NCBI GenBank assembly: GCA_001714685.2
Contig: MDTP02000066.1
Coordinates: 1 to 34,167 of the forward strand
Direction: 5' to 3'
Length of the DNA stretch: 34,167 bases
Source of the DNA: Methanosarcina sp. Ant1
GTDB lineage: Archaea; Halobacteriota; Methanosarcinia; Methanosarcinales; Methanosarcinaceae
Shown here: positions 2,419-32,235 of the stretch, one piece after another
Position numbering within the stretch: position 1 is the stretch's first letter
Layout: each line of letters opens with the position of its first letter
Program-made: the position numbers and the translations under genes
Notes under the pieces: generated by a model
Seen by the model: only the letters and a program-made list of their open reading frames with translations
Database searches by the model: none
Told to the model about the DNA's origin: nothing

Positions 2419-2488
2419 GTTTATGTCACCAGTTGAAAAAATAATGAGTTTTTGTTATATTAGGATTATGTATTTCGGTTCTGTAAAG

Positions 2489-5898: not shown

Positions 5899-5929
5899 CT
5901 TTGAATTTACACAAATTCGCAACACTGCC
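5899..5929 (-). repeat. Right member of the inverted pair flanking the sensor kinase gene
   Basis: This is the reverse complement of 2489-2520 apart from one missing C. It lies next to the broken gene fragment at 5945-6055, which suggests that an insertion event ended that gene here. Confidence 0.6.
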
Positions 5930-5944
5930 TGCCGCAAGGAATGT

Positions 5945-6055: not shown

Positions 6056-6065
6056 TTACTGCCTT

Positions 6066-6695
6066 TTAAAGAGTTTGCACATGCACTATTCTAATGGTCT
6101 TTTTATTTGGCAATTCATTCACAGTTTCATACTCAAAACCTAAGACACCTATATCTATGTTAAACCATTTTGGAATATGACTGCAAGTGACATCCAGCCT
6201 GTTGAATTCTCCATTTTTCAGATAGGGAATCAGAATTTTCTTTGAAGTCAACTCCGGATTTTTTGAAAGGATTTCTTCCATATTAAGACAAAAATCACCT
6301 TTATTCATACCAGGTTTCAAAAATTGTATGATATCGAATTTTTGGGGTTTCTCCTTCCGCTCTTCAATTAGCTCAAGCATCTCTTTTTTGACTGAATCAA
6401 GAACATCCAATGCGCTATTTTCTACAAGGAATATTTCAAAGCCCGCTGCTTGAAAAGTGCCGAACGCTATCCCTGGGATTTCACTTGCAACCACTATTTT
6501 TACATAATCAAGCTGCTTTACGGTATTCCTCACAGCCATGCGTACCGCGGCAATACCCTTCGCGTTGCAAACTATATTTTCAAAACGGTTCAGAACTTTC
6601 CATTCCCCGCCCTCGTCCTCATATATTGCAACGAATCCCGGTTCAAATATTGAACTCGTTTTTTGGTTATTGTTTTCCACAACTGCAATTTTCAA
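6066..6695 (-). CDS. AnfO-like protein (Fe-only nitrogenase accessory family)
   Basis: The 209-aa protein begins LKIAVVENNNQKTSSIFEPG, followed by an acidic 'AIYEDEGGEW' strand, a 'VRMAVRNTVKQLDYVKIVV' segment and 'SEIPGIAFGTFQAAGFEIF'. This pattern is typical of the AnfO family, found with alternative iron-only nitrogenases. Start choice: a TTG at 6695-6693 lies seven bases after AGGAGG (minus strand), which is much better than the ATG ten codons upstream at 6725. No nitrogenase structural gene is in the window, so a role with nitrogenase here is inferred only from family. The last 100 residues (PQKFDIIQFLKPGMNKG onward) form a second region that may be specific to archaeal members. A gene fragment follows immediately downstream. 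Confidence 0.65.
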   Translation of the reverse strand: MKIAVVENNNQKTSSIFEPGFVAIYEDEGGEWKVLNRFENIVCNAKGIAAVRMAVRNTVKQLDYVKIVVASEIPGIAFGTFQAAGFEIFLVENSALDVLDSVKKEMLELIEERKEKPQKFDIIQFLKPGMNKGDFCLNMEEILSKNPELTSKKILIPYLKNGEFNRLDVTCSHIPKWFNIDIGVLGFEYETVNELPNKKTIRIVHVQTL

Positions 6696-6721
6696 GACAC
6701 ATCCTCCTTTTGTGTTACTAT

Positions 6722-6847
6722 TCATGATGATTTCAGGCTGTGATTAAAACAATTGCTCGCAGTCGGAACAATCCGCTCGATTTGCACAAGCTCTGTGGGA
6801 TTAATTCTGCAATCACAGGAATATATCGTTTGCGGCAGCGCGAACAT
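6722..6847 (-). CDS. Possible 41-aa ORF upstream of the anfO-like gene
   Basis: An ATG-initiated frame (MFALPQTIYSCDCRINPTEL and 21 further residues) ends 26 bp ahead of the anfO-like TTG start on the same strand, with GGGGT directly before the ATG. Composition is plausible, but there is no known motif apart from two close cysteines, and the start lies inside a GC-rich hairpin (CATACCCC...GGGGTATG, 6845-6871). It could be a leader peptide or chance. Confidence 0.2.
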   Translation of the reverse strand: MFALPQTIYSCDCRINPTELVQIERIVPTASNCFNHSLKSS

Positions 6848-6930
6848 ACCCCATAGCTACTGCGGGGTATGCCACCGCAACTTTGATTGGTCTTCAAGGA
6901 TTCCTATACACTCGGATCAGAAACCATTAT

Positions 6931-6960
6931 ATATTTCATACATAATATAATTATATTCTT
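6931..6960. promoter_or_regulatory. Divergent AT-rich promoter region
   Basis: ATTATATATTT and ATAATATAATTATATT lie between the divergent anfO-like gene (minus) and the 88-aa gene (plus). Both directions contain usable TATA-like boxes. Leaders of roughly 150-200 bases would result on each side. No GGAA-N6-TTCC (NrpR-type) operator was spotted. Confidence 0.3.
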
Positions 6961-7113
6961 TTAATATATGGGAGAAATAACAAGGCGAAAAATACAGGTG
7001 AAGGTAGAACGAACTTGAAGACTACAAATTGGAGCACAGACAGAAAAGAGGATAGAACTGCAGACAGTTGAGCCTTTCTTTTCAAAGAGTTATATTATAA
7101 AATAGGGGAAATT

Positions 7114-7380
7114 ATGAGTGTTATAGATGAACATATTGTTGACCAGAGTAAGTATATTGTCGATGTTGCTTTGAAACTACGAAATCTCGATCTTGAAATT
7201 GCTAAAAATCCAAACTGCTACGAGCTTAAGTCGAGGCGATTTAAAGTATTGGAAGATCTTCACGACAAAACTCGTGCAGAGATGGTGCAATCTGCAGCCG
7301 ATCTCCGTAGATATCGGGATAGGGATAAAGAGCAATGTGCCGATTGTATGAGATGTGATTTATATAAGGAGTTTGTTTGA
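7114..7380 (+). CDS. 88-aa helical protein with C-terminal CxxCxxC
   Basis: The protein is mostly charged and helical (two predicted helices separated by a Pro/Asn turn, about residues 8-75) and ends with CADCMRCDLY, a CxxCxxC-type metal-binding motif near residues 77-83. The ATG follows AAATAGGGGAAATT, a GGGG ribosome binding site at normal distance. It diverges from the anfO-like gene. I do not recognise the family. The Cys cluster at the end of a helical hairpin could bind zinc or an Fe-S cluster and mediate dimer or partner contacts; this is inference. Confidence 0.65.
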   Translation: MSVIDEHIVDQSKYIVDVALKLRNLDLEIAKNPNCYELKSRRFKVLEDLHDKTRAEMVQSAADLRRYRDRDKEQCADCMRCDLYKEFV

Positions 7381-7397
7381 GGTGTAACTGTATCACT

Positions 7398-7485
7398 GAC
7401 TTTCCCGTGCACCCGCGTGTATAGCTTTGCTTCGAAGGTATCTGAGGATCTAGTTGCCGACTTTCCCTCGCACCCGCGTGTATAG
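7398..7485. repeat. Two-unit CRISPR-like relic (27-bp repeats, 61-bp period)
   Basis: GACTTTCCCGTGCACCCGCG at 7398 and GACTTTCCCTCGCACCCGCG at 7459, each followed by TGTATAG, match at 25 of 27 positions. The 61-bp period equals the repeat-plus-spacer length typical of type I-E/I-F arrays. The core TTCCC-CGC-ACCC-GCG recalls the CCCCGC..GCGGGG hairpin of I-E repeats, but with a degraded right arm. No third unit or cas gene was found. It could also be a simple tandem duplication. Confidence 0.4.
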
Positions 7486-8025
7486 TGGTCACAGACAAAA
7501 GTTGTCCAACAGTGACCAAGCTGGATAACTCAAAAGAATCCCTGAAACTACTCAAATTCTGTTTCCTCCTGCCTACTACCTTCATTAGTTACTCTGTGAC
7601 TTGAACTTATAAATTAACTCAAAATTTTGTTATCTCCACTTCTTGCTTGGAGTCAATTGTGGAATACCTGGTCTTTCTGACATCTGGACCATCACCAAAA
7701 ATGGAGATCATTTTTACAAAACCGAGAATTTATTTTTATCTGAGTTTTCACATTAATAAGAGTTTCAGAACAACTTTCGCGATCATAAAACTCGATTGAT
7801 CATTCTGAGCTTGAAAATTCAAAGATTTAATTTTGAGTTTTGGGAGTAGCTCAATAAAAGAAATATCATACATGTAGTGTAAATGTTAGCATCAATTATG
7901 AGATGAAATGAAGTTTTGGCCGAATTCATTCATAATACGAGATATGAGATGTAATTTTGAGTTTCAGGACGGACTAAAAAAGAGGATGGCAAGCCTGAGA
8001 GCTTATTTTCACTTAAATTGAGGAT
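7486..8025. other. Intergenic region, no gene seen
   Basis: It contains TGGTCAC/GTGACCA, a 7-bp inverted repeat (about 7487-7520). A motif near 7820-7860 (TTCAAAGATTTAATTTTGAG, then TTTTGGGAGTAGCTCAATAAA) recurs in altered form at about 27480-27525. No reading frame with a start and protein-like composition was found. Confidence 0.35.
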
Positions 8026-9267
8026 TTATACGGAGTCATTTATACTTTTTTGCCCTCCAGCTATATGCCCCCTAATTTTCTGGAGTCTCTGTATTGCCCC
8101 TGATGCTCTCATGAACCTTCTGAAAATTATTATGGGCATATCAATACTGTCTTTTAAAAATGGTTTTATGTCTCTTTTATCGTAGACTGCAATGTAGCTT
8201 TCAGTGGAACTCCATATATTTTTCATAAATATAGGGAGATATTTTCTGCGCAGTATTAAATTTATAATTTCATGATTTAGATAAATAAAATGGATATCTT
8301 TATTCTTGACCTGAATCTGAGGATTTACATTTTTCCCTAGAGCATCAAGGTACTGGGCGTACTGTAGATTAACCCCTGAAAGATTCCCTACTCTGTGCCA
8401 CATCATTGAACGCAGGTTTATCTCCATAAGCTTGTATTTTTTGTCCCGTGAATCGTATTTGAATTCTGGCTCAGCAATCCCTTTTATATCCATTCCATTA
8501 AGGAGGGCTCTTCCCTGTATCCGAACTTCCTCTGGAGCTTTATTTGAGGCACTTGAAAAAACTCCGAAACTATCAGGATATTGAGCCAGTTTTTTTCCTG
8601 TCCACTCATTCAGGATTCTCCCTTTCAGATCTCTGTAAGCAACATAAGCATATAAGCAACTTTCATCCCCGGGGATAATTTCGGAAGCTAGAAATTTAAT
8701 TCCTGCATCCAGATAATTTTCTATCTTACTTTTTATATTCCTTAATTCTTCCGGCTTGTTTATCTTCATATTCCTGAAGATCCTAATCTTCAGGTCCTCC
8801 CTTTGTGCTGGCTTCAATAGTATGGGAAATTGAATTAATCCAATTTTTTCCAGGTCTTTTTTTTCTTGAATATATATTGTTTTAGGATAGGGAATGCCTA
8901 GCTGCTCGCAATAAGAGTACTGAACAAATTTATCTAGGCATACTAGCAGGTTTTCTTGGTTAAAAGGCAAAAAGCAGAATGAACTTATCTTATTATAGAG
9001 TTTATGCAGATTCTCAAGCTGAAGGTCATTTGTTGGAAATACCACAATTTTTTCATACTCTTCATGAAGTCTTTTAATCTCTCCATACAAGCTTTCTGGG
9101 GTATCGTTGATAAGCACAAATTTTTTTATTTTATTGCTGTATGAAGCTGATTCTCTGCAACATCCAAAAAGAATTATTTCTTCCACTTTTTTCTCATGCA
9201 ATTCCTGAATTATCGAATATCCATTGACGTTCCCTCCAAGAATCAATGCACAGCTACTTTTTTTCAT
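8026..9267 (-). CDS. ATP-grasp superfamily ligase, unknown substrate
   Basis: The 413-aa protein has an N-terminal preATP-grasp domain (ALILGGNVNGYSIIQELHEK) and an ATP-grasp fold from about residue 110 to 310. Visible elements are the ATP-binding Lys strand (FPILLKPAQRED), the ASEIIPGDES segment and the metal-binding end KLMEINLRSM. The domain order and size resemble carboxylate-amine ligases of the D-aspartate ligase / surface-polymer type. The C-terminal 100 residues are basic with hydrophobic patches and may contact the membrane. The ATG is preceded by AAGGAG. It stands alone, with low-GC codon use and no operon partners, next to a broken surface-protein gene, so a surface role or horizontal origin is possible but not shown. 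Confidence 0.75.
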   Translation of the reverse strand: MKKSSCALILGGNVNGYSIIQELHEKKVEEIILFGCCRESASYSNKIKKFVLINDTPESLYGEIKRLHEEYEKIVVFPTNDLQLENLHKLYNKISSFCFLPFNQENLLVCLDKFVQYSYCEQLGIPYPKTIYIQEKKDLEKIGLIQFPILLKPAQREDLKIRIFRNMKINKPEELRNIKSKIENYLDAGIKFLASEIIPGDESCLYAYVAYRDLKGRILNEWTGKKLAQYPDSFGVFSSASNKAPEEVRIQGRALLNGMDIKGIAEPEFKYDSRDKKYKLMEINLRSMMWHRVGNLSGVNLQYAQYLDALGKNVNPQIQVKNKDIHFIYLNHEIINLILRRKYLPIFMKNIWSSTESYIAVYDKRDIKPFLKDSIDMPIIIFRRFMRASGAIQRLQKIRGHIAGGQKSINDSV

Positions 9268-9651
9268 ACTATGAACTCCTTCTGCCGTAAACGTAGATTT
9301 TCAGAGGGTAATGGTTTATTTTCGGTGTTAACATTCAAATTTTCCATTATTTTATTTTTCACTCATCTTCCTACAAAATCAGGTTTTCACAAATTTCTTA
9401 AAGTTGCCATGACATAATAAATTCAGCATAAGCATCATGATTAACCTTATTTTTTAATCAAAATCAATTCATCAAGGTAAAATAAATTCTTCAAAATCGG
9501 GTTTCCTGCTAGATCCACGTTTATAAGTTTTCATTATTTGTATATGTTTATATGTATATCTCTTTTTATATTTTTCTCAAAAACTGACTTATTTAACTTT
9601 TTACTGAGTTTTATGTGATTGACATAACCGAAAACAATATTATAGTCAAGG
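9268..9651. other. AT-rich intergenic region, no intact gene
   Basis: No supported gene. The last part (from about 9618) may already belong to the decayed surface-protein gene that follows, as protein-like codons appear in more than one frame. Confidence 0.3.
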
Positions 9652-10040
9652 GTGAGCGTAGGAACAAATCCTATGCCTTCGGACAATTATATATTCAATT
9701 CAGCACCAGAAAATATGATAATATTTACCGCTTTTTCAATCTACATTTCAAGGGAAGCACCATTAAAAGTGATATTTACCGATAAAAACACTGGATCACC
9801 TACTTGTTGGTCTAGGAATTTGGAGAAGGAAATAATTCAACAGAGCAGAATCCAATGCATACATACTCTGCAGCAGGAAATTACACAGTAAAGCTTACAG
9901 CAAGCAATGCCGGTAGAAAGGATACAAATACAAGCGAAATAATAGTACAAGGTGCTCCCCCAAAGATCCCTGGCGGATTCAATTCTTTGATTTTTGTAAT
10001 GATTGTATCGTATCTCTGTAAAAAGTCAGCCAGAAACTAG
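9652..10040 (+). pseudogene. Frameshifted PKD-domain surface protein remnant
   Basis: Two adjoining frames together encode one PKD domain. The first carries APLKVIFTDKNTGSPTCWS; after a one-base loss near 9815-9825 the second carries GEGNNSTEQNPMHTYSAAG, NYTVKLTASNAGRKD and TSEIIVQG. The rest is a short Pro-Gly linker and a hydrophobic tail (SLIFVMIVSYLC then KKSARN), which looks like the C-terminal membrane anchor of Methanosarcina surface proteins. Upstream N-terminal domains are missing or unrecognisable. PKD domains in this group lie in large S-layer-associated or adhesive proteins. Both the frameshift and the lost N-terminus argue for a dead gene. Confidence 0.65.
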
Positions 10041-10130
10041 TGTCGCGTCAATTGCCAAGTATTTAATAATTGTGAATGATTATAATCGATTTCATACGCA
10101 GTTTCTTGGTTAAAGCGACCCGAGTGCTTC

Positions 10131-10194
10131 GATTCCAAAATAAACGCATAATTCTGTAGATACTTTTAGTTTTGAACTAAAATATCTCCATTAA
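10131..10194 (+). repeat. Dispersed ~64-bp repeat, copy 1
   Basis: GATTCCAAAATAAACGCATA and the following bases to the ATTAA near 10194 recur with few changes at 19860-19922, where the copy abuts a MITE. The same first bases also appear in weaker form near 34120. Noncoding; possibly an end of a decayed insertion element. Confidence 0.5.
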
Positions 10195-10261
10195 AATTAC
10201 CCGAGGCTCTATAAGCCCCGCCAGCAAGGTCGGGAACGGAAAAGCCTAATCAAGAAACCAT

Positions 10262-10341
10262 AACCGCGGAAAACGCGGAAAACGCGGAAATAATTGTACC
10301 CTTGGTTTCTTAATTCTGTGTCTTCCGTGTTTTCAGCGGTT
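10262..10341. repeat. REP-like palindrome with CGCGGAAAA tandem units
   Basis: AACCGCGGAAAACGCGGAA (10262-10280) pairs with TTCCGTGTTTTCAGCGGTT (10323-10341) at 17 of 19 positions, and AAGAAACCA/TGGTTTCTT pairs nearby. Inside are three direct copies of CGCGGAAA. The shape is that of a repetitive extragenic palindrome or a structured RNA; no gene is encoded. Confidence 0.5.
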
Positions 10342-10577
10342 TTCAAAAATAAAAGTTGCTCTGGCTCCCCCTCCTCTGCGAGCACATGGTATGTTAGCGC
10401 CACCGCTGGCAATTCCGAAAAAGAAGACAAAACCTGATATGAATTACGATTTCAAACAGAAATATTTACACTTAAATAACACTGGTTTCTGTAACTACGG
10501 AAAAAATGGACAAGTTCACTTCAGACTTTATAATCACAGAAAACGCGTAAAGCATGGAAATAAACTGTAAACTGTAA

Positions 10578-10705
10578 TTAGTCCTCTTGAGCGAAGCGAA
10601 AAGGACCTCGTGCTGTTGCACTTGCAGTGCAACTCCCAGAAATCTCCGATTTTCTGTGATCCCGAAGCGAAACTCGGGTAGCGAAACTCGGGTGAGGCAC
10701 AATTC
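10578..10705. repeat. Structured intergenic segment with hairpins and a tandem repeat
   Basis: It contains GTCCT/AGGAC (10581-10606), a perfect 8-bp stem with a 3-base loop (GTTGCACT tgc AGTGCAAC, 10615-10633), and GCGAAACTCGGGT repeated at 10667 and 10681. It sits just ahead of nob1 and may be a REP cluster or leader structure. No protein is supported here. Confidence 0.4.
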
Positions 10706-10755
10706 GGGATTGAGAAGCCAATGGATTATATACTAAAAAAGATAAGAGAAGGAAA

Positions 10756-11256
10756 ATGACCTGTTACATAACAGACTCTGCAGTTTTTATAATGGGGAAC
10801 TGCAATTTAGATTGTTCGCTGATGATTACCGTCCCTTCTGTTGCGGATGAATTAAAGAGCAGGGACGCCGTGCTTCGTTTTGATCTTGCAAAAGAAGCAG
10901 GCTTACGTGTGGAATGGCCAGAACCTGAAATGGTAAAAGAGGTTAGGAAAAAGGCTGAGCAGACCCGGGACTCAGAAGAGCTCTCAAAAACAGATATAGA
11001 AATCCTTGCAAAAGCTCTTGAGCACAGGGACAGGGGAATACTGCTTACGGATGATTATGCAGTCCAGAATGTTGCCGTACAGCTTGGGATTCAGGTTAAG
11101 CCTATTGCCCAGAAAAAGATTAGGGACATCATTATCTGGCAAAAGCAGTGTACTGGATGCAGAAAAACGTTTGATAAGGGGGATGTCTGCCTCATCTGCG
11201 GCTCTGCTCTTAAGAAAAAGAGGAAAAAAATTATAAAAGAAAAGATTCAATCTTAA
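10756..11256 (+). CDS. nob1: Nob1-like rRNA-processing endonuclease (PIN + zinc ribbon)
   Basis: The 166-aa protein combines a PIN nuclease domain and a C-terminal zinc ribbon, the standard archaeal Nob1 layout. Nob1 cuts the 3' end of pre-16S rRNA during small-subunit maturation. Acidic metal-binding residues are visible: Asp7 in YITDSAVF, the SKTDIEIL segment around residue 78 and LLTDDYAVQN around residue 97. The zinc ribbon is CTGCRKTF followed by CLICGS. The ATG is preceded by AGAGAAGGAAA. The C-terminal KKKRKKIIKEK tail probably contacts RNA. Length matches the family. No operon partner is close; the next gene starts 180 bp downstream on the same strand. Confidence 0.9.
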   Translation: MTCYITDSAVFIMGNCNLDCSLMITVPSVADELKSRDAVLRFDLAKEAGLRVEWPEPEMVKEVRKKAEQTRDSEELSKTDIEILAKALEHRDRGILLTDDYAVQNVAVQLGIQVKPIAQKKIRDIIIWQKQCTGCRKTFDKGDVCLICGSALKKKRKKIIKEKIQS

Positions 11257-11436
11257 ACTGAAGAAAAAGATATAACGCTTGATAGTATTATACTGTCTTA
11301 ATTGAGAAAACATAAACTTGAATAAAGTTTTTCAGGCAGTATTCCAGGCAAGAATCATAAGTATAATTGTAACTGTAGAACTGTAATACTGCGCCGGAAA
11401 TACAGCCGGATAAAAATATCAGGTGGGAATGGAGGC

Positions 11437-12051
11437 ATGAAGAATATAGAAGATTTAATCCAGAAAGCTGTAGAACTGCAGAGTAACGGGCTTGTTACCG
11501 GCCAGATTGCCGATGAACTCAACGTTTCAAGAGAAACGGTTACCTGGCTTTTAACCCGTTCAAAAAAAGAAGTAACAGCACCTGCTCCAAAAGATATTTC
11601 TGTAAACTGGAGCAGTATAGGGAAAAGTGCTATACGTCTCCACTACATCTCGCTTGCACTCTGCGACATGGTGAAGGAGACCCTGAAAAAAACAAACGCT
11701 GAAGTAGACGTGGTCGTTGGAGTTGCCGCCAGTGGTATTCCCCTGGCAAGCATGATGGCAAATGAACTGGGTGCAGACTTCGCCCTCTATCATTCCCGTA
11801 AAGGGCAGGATACAATCCAGCCGGGCCAGAAAGGGACCATAAGCAGAAATTTTGGAACCGTTGCCGGTAAAAACTGCGTAATCGTGGACGATGTTATTAC
11901 CACCGGTTCAACCACCATGGAAGTCATTGAACAGCTGAGAGAAATGGATGCAAAACCAAGAGTTGTAGTGGTTTTGGTGGACAAAAAAGGTGCAGATACA
12001 ATCGCTAATGTTCCGATTCAGTCTCTTGTAAAAATTGTACGTTTGGACTGA
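11437..12051 (+). CDS. gfcR: GfcR-like transcriptional regulator (HTH + PRTase domain)
   Basis: The 204-aa protein has an N-terminal helix-turn-helix ([20 protein letters not shown], residues 20-39) and a type I phosphoribosyltransferase domain with the PRPP loop [13 protein letters not shown] near residue 150. Proteins of this layout are often labelled orotate phosphoribosyltransferase-like, but the haloarchaeal homologue GfcR works as a transcription regulator of sugar metabolism. The HTH makes regulation more likely than catalysis. The start is secure: GGAGG lies four bases before the ATG. A strong hairpin follows at 12096-12122, so the gene is probably monocistronic. Its targets in a methanogen cannot be read from this window. 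Confidence 0.85.
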
Positions 12052-20666: not shown

Positions 20667-21614
20667 ATGGCAAATAAATTAAAAACCTACACAATCCTCA
20701 CATTACTGGTGATTGGACTTGTGTTTCTGGGAATTGGATGTGCTGAAAAAAATAGTGGAGGTTCTGCCCCTGCTCAGAATATCTCTTCAGAAGGAGCCCC
20801 AGTACAGGAAGCTACTGCCTCCGAAGCACCACAGGGCACTGATGCCTCTGGAGAACAGAGCATTTCTGTGAAAGGCTCTGACACAATTCTGCCTCTTGCA
20901 CAGGCTGAAGCTGAAGAATTCATGAATGAAAGCTCTGGGAAAAGTGTATCAGTTACGGGAGGCGGGTCCGGTGTTGGGATTGCAGCTCTCATTGACGGGC
21001 AGGTAGACATTGCTACTGCATCCAGAGAAATAAATGCTAACGAAACCGAAGCCGCTAAAAAGAATGGAATCAATCCTGTGGAGCATTCTATTGCCTATGA
21101 CGGAATTACAGCGGTTGTAAACCCTGCAAATCCGGTTTCTGAACTTACCTTTGACCAGCTTCGCGGCATCTACAATGGGAGCATCAGCAACTGGAAAGAA
21201 GTTGGCGGTGAAGATAAGCCGATTGCAGTAATTTCCAGGGACAGCAGTTCCGGAACTTATAAAGACTTCCAGAAAGATGTTATGCTTGGGGATGAATACC
21301 GGCCCGATGCCCTTACTCAGCCTGCTACAGGAGGAGTAGTTGGTGAGGTTTCTCAGAACCCCAACGCAATCGGATACATCGGCTTTGCATACATCGATAA
21401 TAGCATAAAGGCCTTAAGCCTGGACAAAGGAAACGGATCCGTAACTCCAACTGCTGAAAGCATTCTAAATGGTGCATACCCGCTTTCGAGGGCTCTCTAC
21501 TTCTATACCAATGGGGAACCTTCAGGTCCCACAAAGGAATTCATCGACTTTGTGTTGAGCGAGAAAGGGCAGAACCTTGTGAGTGAAGTCGGGTACATCC
21601 CGCTAAAAAAGTAA
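20667..21614 (+). CDS. pstS: Phosphate ABC transporter substrate-binding lipoprotein PstS
   Basis: The 315-aa periplasmic-type phosphate-binding protein has a lipoprotein signal (hydrophobic residues 9-24, Cys25 in LGIGCAEK), a Ser/Ala/Gly/Pro-rich linker to about residue 70, and the phosphate-binding fold. Ligand-site motifs are SVKGSDTILPLAQ, VTGGGSGVGIAAL, ATASREINANE and SRDSSSGTYKDFQK. It would capture phosphate outside the membrane and hand it to PstCA. AAAGGAG ten bases ahead of the ATG sets the start. The gene looks intact, but its normal partners downstream are destroyed (pstC-pstB fusion relic, frameshifted phoU), so it has no local permease. It may serve another Pst copy elsewhere or be on the way to decay. 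Confidence 0.93.
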   Translation: MANKLKTYTILTLLVIGLVFLGIGCAEKNSGGSAPAQNISSEGAPVQEATASEAPQGTDASGEQSISVKGSDTILPLAQAEAEEFMNESSGKSVSVTGGGSGVGIAALIDGQVDIATASREINANETEAAKKNGINPVEHSIAYDGITAVVNPANPVSELTFDQLRGIYNGSISNWKEVGGEDKPIAVISRDSSSGTYKDFQKDVMLGDEYRPDALTQPATGGVVGEVSQNPNAIGYIGFAYIDNSIKALSLDKGNGSVTPTAESILNGAYPLSRALYFYTNGEPSGPTKEFIDFVLSEKGQNLVSEVGYIPLKK

Positions 21615-23521: not shown

Positions 23522-24197
23522 TCATTTATCAGGTACTTCAAAAAGGGAAGGGTATTTCATTTGTCATCGGTTAACGAATTTTATGCACAACTTCGAATAC
23601 CACGTATAGTGATTTTCCGACTTGAATGTTGAGATTTTAGCATAAAAAATAACACTTTCATGCATTTTATCTCTTAACCGAATACAAATGAAGGGTATTT
23701 TACTTTTAGTGGTATGAGAAGTTCTTTGTCTATTTTTGCATTATAAAGTGTTTTTACTTTAGACAGCTGATCAATTGTTAATTGATGAGTTCTTAGAAAA
23801 TTAGCCTCTTCAAGGTCAGCCATTGTGAAATTTGCCTCTTTAAGGTTAGCTCCTTCAAGGTTAGCCATAAAAATGTAAGCATTTGCAAGGTTAGCTCCTT
23901 CTAGGTGAGCCTTTACTAATTTAGCCCCTTCAAGGTGAGTATTTATTAATTTAGCTCCTCTAAGTTGAGCTCTTTGGAGATACGCCCCGCTAAGGTTGGC
24001 TTTTGTGAGGTTAGCGCCTTCTAGATGAGCCATTTCGAGGTGAGCTTCTTTAAGGTTAGCCTCCTCAAAGTTAGCCTCTTTAAGATAAGCTCCCATGAAG
24101 TCAGCCCTTATAAGGTTAGCTCCTTTAAGTTTAGCTTTTTCAGGTTAGCCCCTCTAAGATTAGCCTCGTTAATGTAAATTTCTGTAAGATTTGTCAT
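23522..24197 (-). pseudogene. Pentapeptide-repeat protein gene, frameshifted and MITE-interrupted
   Basis: The ancestral gene reads from ATG 24197 (MTNLTEIYIN, after AAAGGGTTTTGC) through A(N/D)LXX repeats to a C-terminus KYPSLFEVPDK with stop at 23522. Two lesions break it. One T is missing in the run at about 24135-24139, shifting frame after ANLRGANLK. A MITE (23558-23690) has inserted in codons near the end, so the current frame ends early with KYPSFVFG at 23674. The longest remaining frame is 24096-23674, 140 aa, with about 15 pentapeptide units followed by the conserved tail LTIDQLSKVKTLYNAKIDKE. Such proteins fold as right-handed beta-helices. It is a paralogue of the gene at 31381; roles are unknown. 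Confidence 0.7.
23558..23690. mobile_element. ~133-bp MITE with 11-bp target duplication in pentapeptide gene
   Basis: The left end CATTTGTCATCGGTTAA and the right end (reverse complement CATTTGTATTCGGTTAA) match at 15 of 17 bases. GAAGGGTATTT lies directly outside on both sides (23547-23557 and 23690-23700; the last G may belong to the end). Removing one copy of the duplication plus the element restores an open C-terminus, which confirms insertion. No gene inside. Confidence 0.75.
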
Positions 24198-24649
24198 GCA
24201 AAACCCTTTCATTACTCTTTCGCCTACATTAAGCCGTCTTCCATTTTATGAGCCATTAATTTTAACAGTAATAGGACTTAAACATTAAATATAATAATCA
24301 AGCCATTGAAGTTGTACTACATTTGTATTATTAGTATTAGTTGTAATAAAACAATATAGCGTATATAGAAACATGATTAAGAAACTACTATTAATTAAAA
24401 CAAGACGTTATACATTCAAATAGTTGTTAAGTTCTGGCAAGTATTCATTTTTCTCAATATGTTTTTCTAAATATTCTAATTATTTTCCTTAAATAAATAA
24501 TACGAATGACATAATATTATTTTAAGCTGCTATTAATTAAAAAACGATTCATTTAATTCTACGCATTTGAATATTTAATCAGATAAGACAATTATACTTA
24601 ATTAATTGATATAAATGAAGTAATCTGTTCTTAATTTCACCAAATCTTA
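24198..24649. other. AT-rich intergenic region, no gene seen
   Basis: About 450 bp of very AT-rich DNA containing several short AATTAATTAA-type tracts. Neither strand shows a credible coding frame, ribosome binding site or clear repeat apart from the half MITE that follows. Confidence 0.4.
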
Positions 24650-24747: not shown

Positions 24748-27321
24748 TCATAAAGACGCTATCTCTTTATACAGGTTTTTGATTGCACTTTCAATTCTCT
24801 GCCTGAAATCCTCACTCTGGATTTTCGCCCAAGCTTCTGGAAAGGTGTCGAGTAGTGTCTGGAGTTCTTCTTCCCTGTATGCCTTGTAAGCTTCTATTCC
24901 TTTCAGACCCTCTGAGGTTTTCTTTTCTCCGGAATTTTTTCCCTCTTCTGAAAGTCCCCAGTCTCCGGTCTGCAAATAAGATTCCAGCAAGTAGATTGCA
25001 ACCACAGAATCGTGCAGGTCTCCAAGGTGATCCTGCAAGGCTGTGAATTCCTTGACCATTGTTTCTGCTTCTTTTCCCAACACGTCTCCAAAGAACTCAA
25101 GTGTATAGCGCAGTCCTTTGGCCGCAATCCTCAGTCTGTGCAACCTCTCTACAGAGACGTGAGGCCCTTCTACCCATTCGGAATAGGCACTGATTTCTGA
25201 GAAACGGCCATAGAGGATAGAAGGAAGCACATCCGTTACTCTATGTGGCAGAACATCGTGTTTTCTGGTTGTAGTTGGCAGAGCCCAGGATCCGAAAACA
25301 GCAAGAGAGTCTGAGAACTCCTTTTTGAAATTTGCGTATCTTTCGCTTTTCAGGTAGATGATCATGTTTTTCCGGGCTTTTTTTCTCTCTTCGGAAAGCA
25401 CGGCAAATAGGGGATCAAGATCATGTTCGTTCTCAGGAGGTAGTTTTTTAAGATACCCTTCAGCTTTTTCCCGAAAAACGTCTAAATCCCTGACATCCCT
25501 GAGTGCTCCAAGGGTACTTCTGAGTCCTTTTAGGCGAGGTTCAAGCTTTTTGGAATCCAGGTACGCTTCAAAGACCTTTGCAGCAGCCCTCATTCTGCGG
25601 ATCGCTACCCTCATATCGTGCAGGTCTTCTATGTTTTCTCCCTTCCGGGTTCCTTTTTCATGGGCAAGCATTCTGGCAAATTGCTGGGAAAAAACCTTCT
25701 GAGCTACCATAGCCATGGAGTTTTCGGGTCTGACTGCAAATTTCAGGTCCCCTTTCTCTTTTTTACTTTCATCCTTTTTTTCGGTTTCTTCTGCCTTTCT
25801 TTCAATAATTTCGACTTCATCCATCTCTTTGCCCGGTTTGAAGAGGAATTTTGTGCCGAAAAGATATTCCCAGAGTTCGCTTCTCTTTTCTGCTCTTTTT
25901 ACAGCTTTTTCCGCATTTTGCCCGAAAATTTCTACTTCAACTGCTCCCTCGACCTGCCTGATCCTGTCTGGCAGGAATTTCCAGTCCCCTTTTTCAAGGA
26001 GGTCCGCAATCCGGATGAAAGACGCGAGAATAAGAGCTTTGTTCTTGATTTCTGGAGGTAGCATGATATGTGATTCTTCAAAAACTGAAGACAGGTTCTT
26101 TACGCTGATTTCGGGGGACTGAAGTTCCATGATGAGAGCAAGCATTCTGGACTCGTGGAGCTTTAACCCTTTAAGAGGATGGGTCAGGAGAATTTCCTTA
26201 CCCATCTTGACTTTTTCTTCCGGTGAAACCGAGATTCCGATGTTCTGAAGGAGAGTTGCAAAGCCCAGTATTTCCCTCTCTTTCTGCCCTAACTTGTGGT
26301 AGGGGAAAGATCCGTCAAAAAGTATGAGTGCGTTGGTCCTGATCTTTTCTGCCCTGGCTTCATCTGCTCCATAGAGCTCAAAGAGGGTTTTGAGTGTCCA
26401 CTCCTTGAAACCTCTATCTTCCTGGCTTTTGCCCAGGGCGTAGCGCCCGGTCTGGAAATGGAATTCTCTTGACCCATGATTTTCAGAGCCAAAAGGGAAA
26501 CTGGAAAGCCTTTCTTTTTCAAACCGGGAGTACAGGGCTTCAATCTCTGGCTCGGGGACTTTCAGGAGAAGGCTCAATTCCGCTGTATTCAAACCCTTAT
26601 CAAGTGAAAGGAGAATTCCAGCCTGCTTTCCATATACATTTTCTTGGTCTGCGAGCTGCATACAAAAAGCCCTTTCTCTGAAGCTCAAAAGGGTTTTTTC
26701 CGGCAGATTATCTTTGAAGATAAGAGCCCTTTCGAATTTGGAAATAGGATTTTCTGCAAGGTTATAATTTCCCAGCAAGTATTCCACAATAGCCTGCAAA
26801 TCTTGAGGAGTCCCTCCCGTCTTCAGTTCAATTTCAAGTTCGCTGTAGAGCTTTTCTCTGTTTTCACTTTTAAGGCTCACCTGGTCCAGAGAAAATTCGG
26901 CTATATGCCTTTCCCCCAGTTTCACCTGACGTACAACCCTTTTTTGTTTAAGTTTCAGGAGTGGAAGCAGGTCAAAGCCTGAGCTAAGTTCGAAAATCTG
27001 TTTCCTTATCCTGATATCTGGACATTCAAAGACAGAAGCCTCTTTCGGTAGAAAACTGACGTATTCTTCTCTCCTGTGTACCCCAGCTTCGAACCCTCCC
27101 AGGCTTTTGATAGTCAACCAATGTCCTTCTTTTCCCATCTCTTTCCGTAGCCGTAGAAAATAGCCTTCAGCCATTAAAGCCGTTTTTTTTGTGTCCAGGA
27201 AGGTATCTTCGATAAGCAGTACTGCAGCTTCGGAAAGAGAATAATCTCCCAGTTGAGATAGCGTTTCAATATCTTGAATTTCTGCTTCATCAAGTACCAG
27301 AAACTTTGATTCGATTTCCAT
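24748..27321 (-). CDS. CYTH / Ppx-GppA-like HD / CHAD three-domain protein
   Basis: 857 aa. Residues 1-200 are a CYTH (triphosphate tunnel) domain with the ExExK signature at the start (MEIESKF) and further Arg/Lys/Glu strands (LRLRKEMG, YSELEIELK). Residues about 290-500 resemble the C-terminal HD-like domain of exopolyphosphatase/GppA proteins (LGFATLLQNIGISVS, ILASFIRIADLLEKGD), without the catalytic N-terminal part. Residues about 530-850 form a CHAD domain (LHDMRVAIRRMRAAAK near 567, RLHRLRIAAKGLRYTLE), a helical bundle with conserved basic and His residues known to bind polyphosphate. Domains split in other proteins are here on one chain. The ATG follows AGAGGGGAAAAC. It lies 230 bp downstream of the PPDK-like gene on the same strand. 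Likely a polyphosphate- or triphosphate-handling protein; the chemistry is inferred. Confidence 0.85.
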   Translation of the reverse strand: MEIESKFLVLDEAEIQDIETLSQLGDYSLSEAAVLLIEDTFLDTKKTALMAEGYFLRLRKEMGKEGHWLTIKSLGGFEAGVHRREEYVSFLPKEASVFECPDIRIRKQIFELSSGFDLLPLLKLKQKRVVRQVKLGERHIAEFSLDQVSLKSENREKLYSELEIELKTGGTPQDLQAIVEYLLGNYNLAENPISKFERALIFKDNLPEKTLLSFRERAFCMQLADQENVYGKQAGILLSLDKGLNTAELSLLLKVPEPEIEALYSRFEKERLSSFPFGSENHGSREFHFQTGRYALGKSQEDRGFKEWTLKTLFELYGADEARAEKIRTNALILFDGSFPYHKLGQKEREILGFATLLQNIGISVSPEEKVKMGKEILLTHPLKGLKLHESRMLALIMELQSPEISVKNLSSVFEESHIMLPPEIKNKALILASFIRIADLLEKGDWKFLPDRIRQVEGAVEVEIFGQNAEKAVKRAEKRSELWEYLFGTKFLFKPGKEMDEVEIIERKAEETEKKDESKKEKGDLKFAVRPENSMAMVAQKVFSQQFARMLAHEKGTRKGENIEDLHDMRVAIRRMRAAAKVFEAYLDSKKLEPRLKGLRSTLGALRDVRDLDVFREKAEGYLKKLPPENEHDLDPLFAVLSEERKKARKNMIIYLKSERYANFKKEFSDSLAVFGSWALPTTTRKHDVLPHRVTDVLPSILYGRFSEISAYSEWVEGPHVSVERLHRLRIAAKGLRYTLEFFGDVLGKEAETMVKEFTALQDHLGDLHDSVVAIYLLESYLQTGDWGLSEEGKNSGEKKTSEGLKGIEAYKAYREEELQTLLDTFPEAWAKIQSEDFRQRIESAIKNLYKEIASL

Positions 27322-27550
27322 GTTTTCCCCTCTACTATAACACGAACAATATAGCCACTTCTTATCATATCCACACTTTTATTAATGAGCTAATCCTAAA
27401 ACTTCTCATATTCTTGATAATTGGGATTTTTCAGGATTGTTTTCATGGCTAGAAACTTGATTAGTCACTCAAATATTAGATTCAAAGAAGTAAATATTGA
27501 GTTTTGGAATCAGCTCATAAATTTAATCCTCAGGAGAAAAAAATTTGTCC

Positions 27551-29173
27551 TCAAGCAGCTGTTTCTCGTTTCCATACATCCACCACTTTAAGCAGTTCTA
27601 CAGGCTTTTCGAACGTGACTTCAACTTCTCCCTCATAGACCTCCCCGCTTATCCCTTCCAGACTTATCGCGTCTCCTTCCATGAACTCTTTTCCTCCGAT
27701 GCTGCATTTCCTGCCTATGGGATCAATTTTGAGTTCCCTGCAGTTGACAATACAGACTTTTCCCATCTGGCGAGCTACAACGGCTGCATGAGCAGTTCTG
27801 GCGCCTCTAGATGTTAGGAGGCCTGCAGAAGCGTGGATTCCTGGAAGATCATCAGGAGAAGGGATTTCCCGGACAAGAATTTCGGTTCTTTCGTGAGCAT
27901 AGCTCTTTGCCCTCTCACTGCTGAACGCGATCTTCCCGACAGCAACCCCACTTGAGGCAGAGTCACCTTTTGCCAGAGGGAGTTTATTAGTCCTGATTTT
28001 CTGCACTGAAATAGAATCCAGGTCTACTCCCTCCAGCTTTTTTAGAGCCTCCTCAGGGGAAATAAGCCCCTCTTTTACAAGGTCGACTGCAATTCTCAGG
28101 GCTGCCATTGGAGAACGTTTCCCATTTCGGCTCTGAAGGATGTTGAGTTTTCCTTCTTCGACAGTAAATTCGATGTCCTGCATGTCCCTGAAATGGGCTT
28201 CGAGCTTATCCCCTGTGCCCTCAAGTTCCTTGTAAACAACAGTAAGGGCAGTTTTCAGCTCAATTCCTGGAGTTCCCGCCCTTGAGCCTGAGACCACGTC
28301 CTCTCCCTGGGCTTCGAACCTGAAATCGACTACAGGCAGTTTTTCCCCTGTCCATGGACTCCGGGTAAAATAGATCCCTGCACCTGAGTTCATGCCCATA
28401 TTTCCAAAAACCATAGTCTGGACAGTGACTGCCGTGCCCCTGACTCCTTTGATATTGTTGATTTCCCGAAATTCCCTTGCCCTGGGGCCCATCCAGGAAT
28501 CAAGCACCGCCCGTACTGCAAGTTCAAGTTGCTCTTGTGCATCCTCGGGGAAAGGTCTCCCACGTTCTTCAAAGAAAAGCCGTTCATAATCCCCCGCAAG
28601 TTTCCTCAACTCCATGTAATCCAACTCTTTTTCTTCCGGAACTCCAGCGGCCTCGATTGCGGAGTTCATCAGGCCCCGATAGAGGGACGGATCCTGGGAA
28701 AACACTATTCTTCCAAATCCTTCTATTAACCTCCGATACGAGTCCCAGGCAAAACTGGGGTTCCCTGTCCTGGCAATGAGGGGCCTGACCGTACCCCTGG
28801 AAAGCCCCACGTTCAGGAGGGTTTCCATAGATCCTGGCATGGAAGCCGCGGCACCGGACCTGACCGAAACCATCAGGGGAGGAGAGCCCCCAAAAACCTT
28901 TCCTGTTGCACTTTCTAGGAAAGAGACTCCCTTCCTGAGGAGGCCGGGCAAATCATCGGGAAGATGCCTGGAATTTTTGAAGTAATCCTCACATACCGAG
29001 ATGTTCAGGACAAAACCAGGGGGCACAGGAACACCCATTGAAGACATGGCTATAAGGATCGAACCTTTGTCCCCAAAGGCTTCCCTGGGGGCATATTCCC
29101 CCTTTCCCTTCCCAAATTCAAGCATCCTTGCTTCTGTTATCTTTTTTTCAGCTCCCTGGATATTTTCAGGCAT
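27551..29173 (-). CDS. PPDK/PEP synthase-like protein lacking the PEP/pyruvate-binding domain
   Basis: 540 aa. Residues about 20-370 match the PPDK/PEP synthase ATP-grasp domain (FGDKGSILIAMSSMGVPVPP, LMVSVRSGAAASMPGSMETL, GIYFTRSPWTGEKL, IEFTVEEGKLNILQSRNGKR). Residues about 400-510 form the swivelling phosphohistidine domain, with catalytic His462 in SRGARTAHAAVVARQMG. The protein ends about 75 residues after this His, so the C-terminal TIM barrel that binds PEP/pyruvate is missing. It can presumably autophosphorylate from ATP but must use another acceptor, as in other PEP-utiliser fusions such as rifampin phosphotransferase. Start at ATG 29173: GGAGG nine bases upstream and one base after the stop of the DUF47-like gene, indicating translational coupling. 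A longer frame to 29233 is unlikely. Confidence 0.85.
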   Translation of the reverse strand: MPENIQGAEKKITEARMLEFGKGKGEYAPREAFGDKGSILIAMSSMGVPVPPGFVLNISVCEDYFKNSRHLPDDLPGLLRKGVSFLESATGKVFGGSPPLMVSVRSGAAASMPGSMETLLNVGLSRGTVRPLIARTGNPSFAWDSYRRLIEGFGRIVFSQDPSLYRGLMNSAIEAAGVPEEKELDYMELRKLAGDYERLFFEERGRPFPEDAQEQLELAVRAVLDSWMGPRAREFREINNIKGVRGTAVTVQTMVFGNMGMNSGAGIYFTRSPWTGEKLPVVDFRFEAQGEDVVSGSRAGTPGIELKTALTVVYKELEGTGDKLEAHFRDMQDIEFTVEEGKLNILQSRNGKRSPMAALRIAVDLVKEGLISPEEALKKLEGVDLDSISVQKIRTNKLPLAKGDSASSGVAVGKIAFSSERAKSYAHERTEILVREIPSPDDLPGIHASAGLLTSRGARTAHAAVVARQMGKVCIVNCRELKIDPIGRKCSIGGKEFMEGDAISLEGISGEVYEGEVEVTFEKPVELLKVVDVWKRETAA

Positions 29174-29174
29174 T

Positions 29175-31148
29175 TCAATGTCCCTCCCAAACGTGTACCT
29201 CAAAAGCCCTCTCCCGAATTGTAAAGGCTGCAAGCATAAGGGAATTTGAAGCCTCCTCTATTTTTGTTGCAATATCGCGGGCAAGCATGGCTTCTTTGAA
29301 ATCGGTGCTTACTTCGACTATTACCCTGTTTGCCTTCCTGAAAGCCTCGTCACATGTCCTTTCCAGGCTGATAACCTGCGCCGTAGACCCGAAAAACGCC
29401 TGCATCTCATCAGGGGTGCATATCCGGGTACTGCACTGGTAAGCGTAAACAGTTTTCAGAAACTCCCGGCTGCTTTCCAGGACTATCCCTGCCATCTTTT
29501 CCAGGCTTTCTAGAATCCTCCGGGATATATCGACTGGAGGGATAAGGGTGGCAAAAAAGACAGCGTCTTCAAGGGCGTCAATAACATCATCCATATGGAA
29601 GATCAGTTTTTCAAAGAAGTCTGCATTTTCGATCCTTTTTGAAATAGTTCTGATCCTGTTTACGAACTCGTCGGCCTGGCTTTCCCAGACTTTTGCTCTC
29701 TTTGAGTTCCTGAGGACAAAATTAGGTTCTCCTTTATAAGCAATGTAGAGAAGGGAACCGCGGACAGCCCCTGCAGTTTCAACGATCAGGGACGCATGTT
29801 CCGAGCATATCTCCATAAGGTCTTGCTCTGCGGAATGGAAATACCTGAGAAGCTCAGCCCTGATCTCGTCCTGGATGAGAAGGAGGGGGTCTCCGGCAAG
29901 CAGTCCCTTTGAAGCCCTTTGAAGGACCCACTGGAAATACTCGGTTGTCCTCTCCCTTCCTATGATCTGGTAGAGCGGCTCCCCGTAGGGGAGAGGCGCC
30001 CTGGAAGCAAGTTCAAGAGCCCCGAAGATAAGCTGTTCTCCCCCCAGTATCAGGAATGCCCTGTGCCCGCATTCATTTTCGGCTGCCCAGCGGAGCACCT
30101 TTACGCAGTCTGCATTACGCATGAAGTTCCGGAGGCTTTTCCTGGCGCGGTTCCAATCGATGAGAAAAACTATCCTGGAACCCAGAAGAGCCAGAAAGTT
30201 CTTCAGCTCTTCCCTGCCCTTTGCCAGGAAGCGGCCCACTGAAAGGTGGTAGAGCTTGTCCTCAAACTTCTCGCCTGATGCCCTGGAGACGGTATCCTCC
30301 CAGGATGTACCTGTCTCCTCAAAAAGGCTCTGGAAAAAAAGCAGCCTCTGCAAATGAATATCGGTATAAGTAACGGATGCCTCAAGCCCCCTAACATTGA
30401 CCACGAGCACATGAGCCTCGGTCTCTCCGATATCGTTCTGGATCACAAGCTTGCCTGCAATGCGGGTTGCAGTTGTCCCAAGCCCTGGGTGCTCGAACTT
30501 AAGGGAAAAAGTCCGGTTCACGCCCGACATGAAAGAAATTATCAGTTTCCGGTCCTCTTCTGCCACCAGATAGACCTTTGCCCCTTCTAGATTTTCAACA
30601 GCAAGCTCTTCCTGAATCCTGTTTAAGGCTTTGTGGACGTCCATGACCAGGATGTGGAGGCTGTCGCTTTTTCCCCTGTTCCCGGAAGTTAGAGCTCTTA
30701 TGAAATCCCCTCTCAGAATCCCGGGTTCGCTAGCTGAAAGCCCTGCCTCAATTTCGGCTCCGGAGCGTTTTAACTCTTCCAGTCTTGCCTCAAATTCCTT
30801 CCCCTCGGCCCTGCCAGTAGCAAGCAGAGGTTTCAGCATTTCGTTCATGCAGCCCCAGACTCTGGAGAGAATTTCTTCGGCAAAAGGAACAATGTAAATG
30901 TCATGCCCTTTTTTCAGGGCTCCAGAAACAATCCTATCAAACTTTGCATTTTCCTCTCCTGCATTTTCCCTCTCGATCCTGAGGGAAGGAAACTCCAGCT
31001 GCGGATGTTCTGCCTTTTCCCTGGCAGTCTGCAGGAGAGTGAAGTAATATTTGATTCTGTCGTTTGCAGTGAGAGCAGAGTTCACAAGCTCGGGAAGGAG
31101 GAGGCCCTCCTCTCCGAGTTCTCTTACGATAGATTTTTTTTCAACCAT
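29175..31148 (-). CDS. Large protein with C-terminal DUF47/PhoU-like domain
   Basis: About 657 aa, no membrane helix or signal seen. The last ~200 residues resemble the DUF47/PhoU-like helical bundle that regulates phosphate transporters: a heptad helix AEQDLMEICSEHASLIVE, VWESQADEFVNRIRTISKRI, FHMDDVIDALEDAVFF, then long helices. The first ~440 residues match nothing I can name. They contain a beta-rich segment with VYLVAEEDRKLIISFM, LKFEHPGLGTTATRI, LVIQNDIGETEAHVLVVNV and TYTDIHLQR; the conserved His/Asp pattern suggests a metal- or phosphate-binding site. Start chosen at ATG 31148 (MVEKKSIVREL, GGGGATGGGG upstream); an ATG eight codons earlier (31172) is possible. It is the first gene of the cluster and is coupled to the PPDK-like gene with a one-base gap. 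Confidence 0.7.
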   Translation of the reverse strand: MVEKKSIVRELGEEGLLLPELVNSALTANDRIKYYFTLLQTAREKAEHPQLEFPSLRIERENAGEENAKFDRIVSGALKKGHDIYIVPFAEEILSRVWGCMNEMLKPLLATGRAEGKEFEARLEELKRSGAEIEAGLSASEPGILRGDFIRALTSGNRGKSDSLHILVMDVHKALNRIQEELAVENLEGAKVYLVAEEDRKLIISFMSGVNRTFSLKFEHPGLGTTATRIAGKLVIQNDIGETEAHVLVVNVRGLEASVTYTDIHLQRLLFFQSLFEETGTSWEDTVSRASGEKFEDKLYHLSVGRFLAKGREELKNFLALLGSRIVFLIDWNRARKSLRNFMRNADCVKVLRWAAENECGHRAFLILGGEQLIFGALELASRAPLPYGEPLYQIIGRERTTEYFQWVLQRASKGLLAGDPLLLIQDEIRAELLRYFHSAEQDLMEICSEHASLIVETAGAVRGSLLYIAYKGEPNFVLRNSKRAKVWESQADEFVNRIRTISKRIENADFFEKLIFHMDDVIDALEDAVFFATLIPPVDISRRILESLEKMAGIVLESSREFLKTVYAYQCSTRICTPDEMQAFFGSTAQVISLERTCDEAFRKANRVIVEVSTDFKEAMLARDIATKIEEASNSLMLAAFTIRERAFEVHVWEGH

Positions 31149-31380: not shown

Positions 31381-32235
31381 TCAAGGATCCTCTTTTGTGA
31401 TTTCAAAAAGGGCAGGGTATTTTCCTTTTAGTGATGTGAGAAGTTCTTCGTCTATTTTTGCCTTATACAGTGTTTTCACTTTAGAAAGCTGGTCAATCGA
31501 TAAATCCAGAGCCCCTTTAAGGTTAGCTCCTTCAAGGTTAGCCTTTCTGAGGTTAGTTCCTTTAAGGTTAGTCCCTTTAAGGTTCGCTTTTATAAGGTTA
31601 GCCCCTTCAAATGTAGCTCCTATAAGGTTCGCTTTTATAAGGTTAGCCCCTACAAGGTTCGCTTTCGTAAGGTTAGCCCCTTTAAGATTAGCACTTATAA
31701 GTACAGCCGCTTCAAGGTTAGCCCCTTCAAATTTAGCCTCTTTAAATTTAGCCGCTTCAAGGTTAGCCTTTGTAAGGTTGGCCCCTTTGAGGTTAGCCCC
31801 TTTAAGTTTAGCCGCTTCAAGGTTAGCTCCTTGGAGGTTAGCTCCTTCAAGGTTAGCCTCTCTAAGATTAGCTTTTTCAAGGTTAGCTCCTTTAAGGTTA
31901 GTCCCTTTAAGGTTAGCCTCTTGAAGGTTAGCCTCTTGAAGGTCTGCTTCTTTAAGGTCAGCCCCTATAAGGTTAGCCTTTTCAAGGTCAGCTCCTTCAA
32001 GGTTAGCTCCTTCAAATCTAGCCCCTTTAAGGTTAGTCTCTTGAAGGTCAGCTCCTTGGAGGTTAGCCCCTTTAAGATTAGCCCTTTTAAGGTTAGCCCC
32101 TTCGAGTTTAGCTTCTATAAGGTCAGCTCCCTGGAGGTTAGCTCCTTGGAGGTTAGTTTCTTGAAGGTCAGCTCCATAAAGGTTAGCCACTTGAAGGTTA
32201 GCTCCTTTAAGGTTAGCTTCTATAAGGTTAGCCAC
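31381..32235 (-). CDS. Pentapeptide-repeat protein (start uncertain)
   Basis: From GTG 32235 the frame gives 284 aa, nearly all A(N/D)LXX repeats (about 46 units), followed by LSIDQLSKVKTLYKAKIDEE and a tail ending KYPALFEITKEDP. This tail is shared with the broken paralogue at 23522-24197. The repeat coding continues in the same frame upstream of 32235 for about 14 more units and a non-repeat leader (NPEELASDKLKIEIDTPERK) to an in-frame TAA at 32539-32541, yet that stretch has no ATG, GTG or TTG. Either a frameshift has hit the first codons (a GTG at 32525 lies in another frame after AGGGGA), or translation starts inside the repeats. The expected product is a long right-handed beta-helix; partners and function are unknown. 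Confidence 0.75.
   Translation of the reverse strand: MANLIEANLKGANLQVANLYGADLQETNLQGANLQGADLIEAKLEGANLKRANLKGANLQGADLQETNLKGARFEGANLEGADLEKANLIGADLKEADLQEANLQEANLKGTNLKGANLEKANLREANLEGANLQGANLEAAKLKGANLKGANLTKANLEAAKFKEAKFEGANLEAAVLISANLKGANLTKANLVGANLIKANLIGATFEGANLIKANLKGTNLKGTNLRKANLEGANLKGALDLSIDQLSKVKTLYKAKIDEELLTSLKGKYPALFEITKEDP

Follow-up and report, generated by a model that had tools for sequence, protein, structure and literature searches.

We examined a group of three neighbouring genes, here called A, B and C, in a stretch of 34,167 nucleotides from Methanosarcina sp. Ant1; "the window" refers to this whole stretch. The source genome has a size of 4.29 Mb and is Methanosarcina-like, and its closest relatives in the tree of protein A are Methanosarcina metagenome-assembled genomes (MAGs). 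A and B proved to be a conserved gene pair in which a PPDK-type protein without its phosphoenolpyruvate (PEP)/pyruvate barrel is accompanied by a large partner with a PhoU-like tail. The features of the locus are:

29175..31148, minus strand: gene A, 657 aa, with an N-terminal domain (residues 1–430) and a predicted PhoU/DUF47-fold tail (residues 430–652)
29174..29174, minus strand: spacer between A and B, 1 base, translational coupling
27551..29173, minus strand: gene B, 540 aa, barrel-less PPDK with an ATP-grasp and a swivelling phosphohistidine domain
24748..27321, minus strand: gene C, 857 aa, with CYTH (triphosphate tunnel), Ppx domain III/degenerate HD and CHAD domains
20667..21614, plus strand: gene for a PstS-like phosphate-binding protein

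An earlier reading of the DNA, made from the sequence only, had described A, B and C as minus-strand genes running in one direction, the first two of them translationally coupled. The three open reading frames (ORFs) do have this layout, and the single base 29174 separates the stop of A (29175) from the ATG of B (29173). C begins 229 bp after the end of B, where 230 bp had been given. The start of A at 31148 (MVEKKS...) is the one common to its homologues, which lend no support to an alternative in-frame ATG 24 bp upstream (31172).

A scan of 84,980 species genomes turned up 466 encoded relatives of A. We fetched 80 of these loci and added 13 regions from a survey of phyla, giving a set of 93. 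B is located directly downstream of A in 90 of them, and the three exceptions (L047, L084, L091) are contigs that end at A. B therefore adjoins A in every locus with room for it, in six or more phyla, and this pairing is far beyond chance. The two genes are separated by a median of 4 bp, and by no more than 30 bp in 69 of 76 loci, with start codons assigned mechanically. The pairwise divergences of A and B also correlate (r=0.90 over 77 loci). Conserved gene order, however, is a property of A–B; C stands next to the pair in Methanosarcina relatives only.

Among the archaeal hosts of A–B are Methanosarcina, Methanolobus, Methanomicrobiales, Methanoperedens (ANME-2d), thaumarchaea and Thermoplasmata. 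In bacteria, the pair is found in Beta- and Gammaproteobacteria, including five Accumulibacter (Betaproteobacteria), in Planctomycetes and in Desulfuromonadales, and both genes occur together on Methylocella and Aquabacterium plasmids as well. Full-length A is single-copy per genome and its spread is patchy: of 295 genomes in the window's phylum 14 have it, as do 2 of 398 in the phylum to which the thaumarchaeon G297 belongs. Most of the A tree follows the phyla, with some exceptions.

Protein B was proposed in the sequence-only reading to be an ATP-to-histidine phosphotransfer unit without the PEP/pyruvate barrel, and the domain searches bear this out. B matches the Pfam families PPDK_N (1.4e-34) and PEP-utilizers (1.6e-16). 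The PEP/pyruvate TIM barrel PF02896 gave no match in B, which stops at PPDK residue ~513, at the start of the barrel linker. The alignment with the Clostridium symbiosum PPDK covers residues 10–513 without large gaps (E about 1e-124). Scores against the full-length PPDK model TIGR01828 (537.7 bits) and the short-type model NF004531 (405.3 bits) are under the respective curated cut-offs of 843.45 and 456. The equivalents of PPDK K22, R92, E323, Q335 and R337 are kept in all 78 B homologues and those of T453 and H455 (the TxH motif) in 77, the remaining row being a gap. Since these seven ATP/phosphohistidine residues are retained almost throughout, we expect B to be capable of taking phosphate from ATP onto its histidine; the predicted phosphorylated residue is His462. 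B thus shares with PPDK (TIGR01828; e.g. 1KBL, C. symbiosum) the ATP-grasp domain, the swivelling phosphohistidine domain and all catalytic residues that we tested for, but it lacks the barrel and is always accompanied by A.

The same truncated architecture of ATP-grasp and histidine domains is found in the barrel-less PPDK VadK of mycobacteria (Rv1127c; short type NF004531/PRK05878). VadK autophosphorylates with ATP/Mg on the equivalent histidine and exerts its action through binding to metabolic enzymes (PMC13400623). Its partner is Rv1126c and its context the methylcitrate cycle, whereas B is partnered by the 657-aa PhoU-tailed A in a phosphate/polyphosphate context. Barrel-less PPDKs without A were also seen on two plasmids. 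One, from Rhodococcus (L166, 3938–5425), lies in an aromatic-alcohol catabolic run; the other, from Diaphorobacter (L167, 3923–5443), follows a hypothetical gene of ~206 aa with a 4-bp overlap, an arrangement that perhaps resembles Rv1126c/VadK.

Pfam and NCBIfam searches with protein A returned no family above cut-off; its tail reaches 10.7 bits against DUF47/PhoU_div (PF01865), far under the Pfam gathering cut-off of 24.4. An AlphaFold (AF2) model built on a ten-sequence alignment (pLDDT 82.6) shows two parts, of which residues 430–652 are predicted to form a six-helix PhoU fold with VIA Z scores of 20–25 to nine PhoU/DUF47 chains. The best match of the modelled tail is 3l39 (Z 24.8 over 205 residues), and the Pseudomonas PhoU 4q25 scores Z 22.6. 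A profile of ten A relatives matches 3l39 weakly (E=0.008), in agreement with the fold comparison; free-standing ORFs of DUF47 size were also found with an A profile. The PhoU/DUF47-type tail noted earlier is thus clear in the model, although its sequence score is sub-threshold. Homologues of A are named "DUF47 family protein" or "phosphate transport regulator" in public records. The PhoU/DUF47 (PhoU_div) regulators share the tail fold with A but have neither its extra conserved domain of 430 residues nor a B partner.

Modelled alone with 38 sequences, residues 1–430 of A form a confident domain (pLDDT 89.4, pTM 0.81). A Foldseek search of this model against the PDB gave nothing under E 0.076, and profile searches of the domain against PDB and Pfam gave no match; this absence does not establish a new fold. 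The top VIA-align matches, a helical borrelial protein (Z 8.3) and the DNA-binding domain of phage T4 MotA (Z 8.2), are in the noise range and were discarded. No homology was found between the domain and C. Over 86 homologues, A has about 80 near-invariant residues, most of them in the N-terminal domain. They include six histidines (H165, H172, H220, H246, H265, H362) as well as R268, R336, K337, QNDIG 237–241, D263 and DWN 331–333, and the invariant motifs of the domain read HPGLxTTAT, QNDIGxTxAH, YTDxHxxR, IDWNxxRK and GH. Such a basic, histidine-rich set would suit a phosphate-handling site.

The neighbourhoods of A–B in archaea are enriched in phosphate and polyphosphate genes. PPK1, PPX, CHAD, PhoU or Pst genes lie within ~8 kb at 18 of 58 archaeal loci compared with none of 40 controls (p=2e-5), the controls being evenly spaced regions of the same genomes searched with the same queries; weak PstB matches, which are generic ABC transporters, were excluded from the counts. 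PPK1 was found within 8 kb of A in 4 of 13 surveyed genomes (0.1 expected). In the phylum survey, with genomes treated as unrelated, CHAD was present in 14/14 A-bearing genomes versus 54/281 without A (p=4e-10), and PPK1 in 13/14 versus 76/281 (p=9e-7). The linked loci are spread over many separate branches of the A tree. For example, a Methanolinea locus (L050) carries ppk1 (2348–4639), chad (4536–6236), ppx (6233–7819), A (8001–9944) and B (9944–11542) on one strand. A Methanoperedens locus (L069) has, also on one strand, PPK1, CHAD, a metallophosphoesterase-PpxIII-HD protein, A and B. Methanolobus (L121) harbors CHAD-PPK1-PPX on one side of A–B and a two-domain PPK2 with a CYTH-HD protein on the other, and in a thaumarchaeon (L122) PPX, CHAD, PhoU and PstCAB precede the pair. 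A–B is thus inserted in, or adjoins, archaeal ppk1-CHAD-PPX loci in several methanogens and in Methanoperedens; neither A nor B belongs to the polyphosphate enzymes described so far. One bacterial example is Accumulibacter (L119), with PstS, PstC/A and PstB upstream of A–B. The link to phosphate and polyphosphate that had been read from the single locus therefore holds in several archaeal lineages, where the neighbours are PPK1, PPK2, PPX, CHAD, PhoU and Pst, and is mostly gone in bacteria.

A match to a polyhydroxyalkanoate (PHA) synthase, a PhaC-like abhydrolase, adjoins A–B in three thaumarchaeal genomes (L077/L122 7816–9180, L090 5929–7317, L092 1558–2961). These neighbours and the presence of the pair in Accumulibacter are hints of a link to a carbon-storage polymer in addition to polyphosphate.

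C was originally grouped with A and B as the third member of one system. Its CYTH, Ppx/GppA domain III and CHAD domains all score above the Pfam cut-offs, CHAD (PF05235) with 9.8e-55 and 186 bits and a match to 6qv7 at E 1.7e-25. CHAD domains bind polyphosphate (PMC6537752). The part named an exopolyphosphatase-like HD in the sequence-only reading corresponds to PPX domain III; the catalytic Ppx-GppA domain (PF02541) is missing, with no match in C. The domain-III stretch is probably not catalytic, since its HD doublet reads QN; the orthologue in L032 reads HD. The source genome encodes a second CYTH-HD-CHAD protein on another contig, beside PPK1 and PPX, that is 59% identical to C, while the copies near A–B in two other Methanosarcina relatives are 76% and 83% identical to C. 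C therefore travels with A–B in this genus only. It is an addition specific to Methanosarcina and a paralogue of the copy that neighbours ppk1 in its own genome, and of the proposed three-gene system just A–B is conserved. Proximity of A and C was seen only in Methanosarcina relatives (L032, L035). In each of the other eight Methanosarcina genomes among the nine sampled, there is a single CHAD protein and A is absent. No PPK1 or PPK2 catalytic domain was found in A, B or C, and the genome's PPK1 is on another contig.

We put the chance at slightly better than even, roughly 55%, that A and B together make up a two-subunit dikinase derived from PPDK, and that it serves phosphate or polyphosphate metabolism in archaea. 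In such an enzyme, the ATP-grasp domain of B would move the beta-phosphate of ATP onto the swivelling His462 and release AMP; if B is PPDK-like, it would also yield pyrophosphate (PPi) from phosphate (Pi). The loaded histidine would then dock on A, and the phosphate would be handed to A or taken from it. The N-terminal domain of A may stand in for the PEP/pyruvate barrel as the acceptor site, while the PhoU-like tail could tune the exchange to phosphate status. Archaeal A–B would then be either an enzyme that exchanges phosphoryl groups between a phosphate pool and ATP/AMP or a switch that controls this pool. We infer that A and B form a complex and that A receives the phosphate, and likewise which acceptor is used and which way the reaction runs; a separate subunit that takes phosphate from the histidine carrier is suggested by the A–B pairing. 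In this family B is never found apart from A, and A shows the conservation of an enzyme; most probably, therefore, A either provides the acceptor site or itself accepts the phosphate, with its tail providing phosphate-linked control.

Chemistry of this kind is already known, as both barrel-less PPDK kinases and dikinases with exchanged acceptor units have been described. Some PPDK relatives carry a different acceptor unit, and the compounds they phosphorylate are phenol, aniline or rifampin (PMC7500099, PMC4844700). Phenylphosphate synthase (PpsAB), phenylphosphoamidate synthase (PasAB) and rifampin phosphotransferase (RPH) resemble A–B in combining dikinase chemistry with a changed acceptor unit (PMC7500099, PMC4844700), and the Pps and Pas enzymes consist of two subunits, as we propose for A–B. 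PpsAB and PasAB, however, split the ATP-binding from the histidine subunit and RPH is a single chain, whereas B keeps ATP-grasp and histidine together and A would be an unrelated, separate acceptor or effector. Among open-licence papers we found no description of A, of the obligate A–B pairing or of its link to polyphosphate loci.

Several observations weigh against this interpretation. The phosphate and polyphosphate gene set was found near A–B at only 2 of 27 bacterial loci (p=0.16), and a search for a recurring bacterial neighbourhood with 81 neighbour ORFs gave no family more than twice. With the bacterial linkage nearly absent and the neighbours mixed, a role in polyphosphate metabolism may be restricted to archaea or secondary. 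Most polyphosphate-making archaea lack A–B. The co-occurrence tests ignore relatedness, and the neighbour query families were picked after the loci had been seen. Sequence and fold searches gave no functional hint for the N-terminal domain of A, and the Rhodococcus and Diaphorobacter proteins demonstrate that barrel-less PPDKs can have other partners.

The main rival to a dikinase is a regulatory phosphorelay, which we consider possible but unlikely. Here a VadK-like B would sense ATP/AMP/Pi and PPi and would phosphorylate A at a conserved histidine or bind it, and the PhoU-like tail of A would control Pi uptake or polyphosphate enzymes, with no metabolite as final acceptor. VadK sets a precedent as a barrel-less PPDK that autophosphorylates and binds metabolic enzymes (PMC13400623), A combines the PhoU fold with invariant histidines, and Pst/PhoU genes are found near A–B in L047, L064, L077 and L080. 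However, the dense invariant polar motifs in the N-terminal domain of A are more in keeping with a catalytic or substrate site than with a regulator, and the strongest linkages are with polyphosphate enzymes, not with Pst alone. It is also conceivable, though we think it quite improbable, that A and B together phosphorylate an organic metabolite bound by A and that the polyphosphate neighbours reflect energy supply or co-acquisition. Known dikinases do exchange the acceptor domain while retaining the ATP-grasp and histidine domains (PMC4844700, PMC7500099). The mixed metabolic neighbours in bacteria, e.g. beta-oxidation genes on the Methylocella plasmid, and the PHA synthase next to the pair in thaumarchaea would fit such a role, but no metabolic pathway recurs beside bacterial A–B, whereas phosphate and polyphosphate genes recur in archaea.

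Two further alternatives concern the composition of the machinery. In the proposal made from the sequence, A, B and C act jointly in polyphosphate metabolism and C is the carrier of the polymer, to or from which phosphate would pass. The C orthologues near A–B in two other Methanosarcina relatives (76% and 83%), the binding of polyphosphate by CHAD domains (PMC6537752) and the CHAD proteins of other types near A–B in several methanogens are consistent with it; yet C is not beside A–B in most lineages, is a paralogue of a ppk1-linked gene and, at 229 bp after B, has its own upstream region. We therefore regard a three-gene machine as very doubtful. Far less probable still is that B, which aligns end to end with residues 10–513 of the C. 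symbiosum enzyme, is the N-terminal half of a split PPDK working with a separately encoded barrel on pyruvate/PEP. Full-length PPDK and/or PEPS-type (PEPS/EI) proteins coexist with A–B in the same genomes (ORFs of 895 and 810 aa in the source genome), and a search of A–B genomes for a separate barrel gene gave no clear candidate, so that B is not half of an ordinary PPDK. A contains no barrel and B always travels with A, and we rejected the idea after the barrel search.

A more specific form of the dikinase hypothesis is that A and B are a polyphosphate dikinase that carries out ATP + Pi + polyP(n) <-> AMP + PPi + polyP(n+1) via the phosphohistidine; we consider this unlikely. PPK1 was not found in the examined A–B-bearing thaumarchaea and one Thermoplasmata MAG (G297, G302, G308, G309, G310), which may be incomplete as MAGs; most of these genomes have CHAD and PPX, and two also lack PPK2. 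They thus have genes for handling polyphosphate but no known kinase that forms the polymer. Archaea of this type favour a polyphosphate dikinase a little; the near absence of a phosphate context in bacteria and the scarcity of A among genomes of the thaumarchaeal phylum weigh against it as a general solution. If true, it would add a third route by which polyphosphate is made or spent, and cells could use it to turn AMP, PPi and polyphosphate into ATP or to build the polymer without PPK1.

A–B is a cassette of two single-copy genes that is widely scattered and whose annotation goes no further than "DUF47" and "PEP/pyruvate-binding". In it an intact phosphohistidine donor is combined with a large, conserved protein of unassigned fold, and it has a statistical tie to archaeal polyphosphate genes. 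The ppk1-chad-ppx-A-B operon offers a clear test case: does PPDK-type chemistry supply polyphosphate, or does it regulate it? The answer is relevant to how polyphosphate could be handled in archaea that have no PPK1, and to the question why Accumulibacter, which accumulates this polymer, has A–B.

A few loci deserve separate mention. In the Methanosarcina MAGs L032, L033 and L035 the frame of A is broken by apparent frameshifts (in L035 that of B too), which could be sequencing errors or decay. Apparent long ORFs suggesting a fusion of the two genes (e.g. in L108) turned out to be the B frame remaining open upstream of A in G+C-rich DNA. The "Thermoleophilia" locus L063 clusters with methanogens in the A tree, and its bin is therefore probably contaminated. 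On the Methylocella tundrae plasmid (L116, 11660–13815), A–B ends a beta-oxidation run of thiolase, hydroxyacyl-CoA dehydrogenase, acyl-CoA dehydrogenase and enoyl-CoA hydratase.

In the window itself, the PstS gene on the plus strand has orthologues (67–82%) near A–B in three other Methanosarcina relatives (L031, L032, L035); it is thus common to the A–B neighbourhoods of four Methanosarcina relatives, with changed gene order. Two pentapeptide-repeat genes (23674–24200 and 31381–32235, both minus strand) bracket A–B–C on the same strand and are related to each other, with about 50% identity in protein and about 70% in DNA. The three genes look as if they had been inserted between, or are flanked by, recombining pentapeptide-repeat paralogues.

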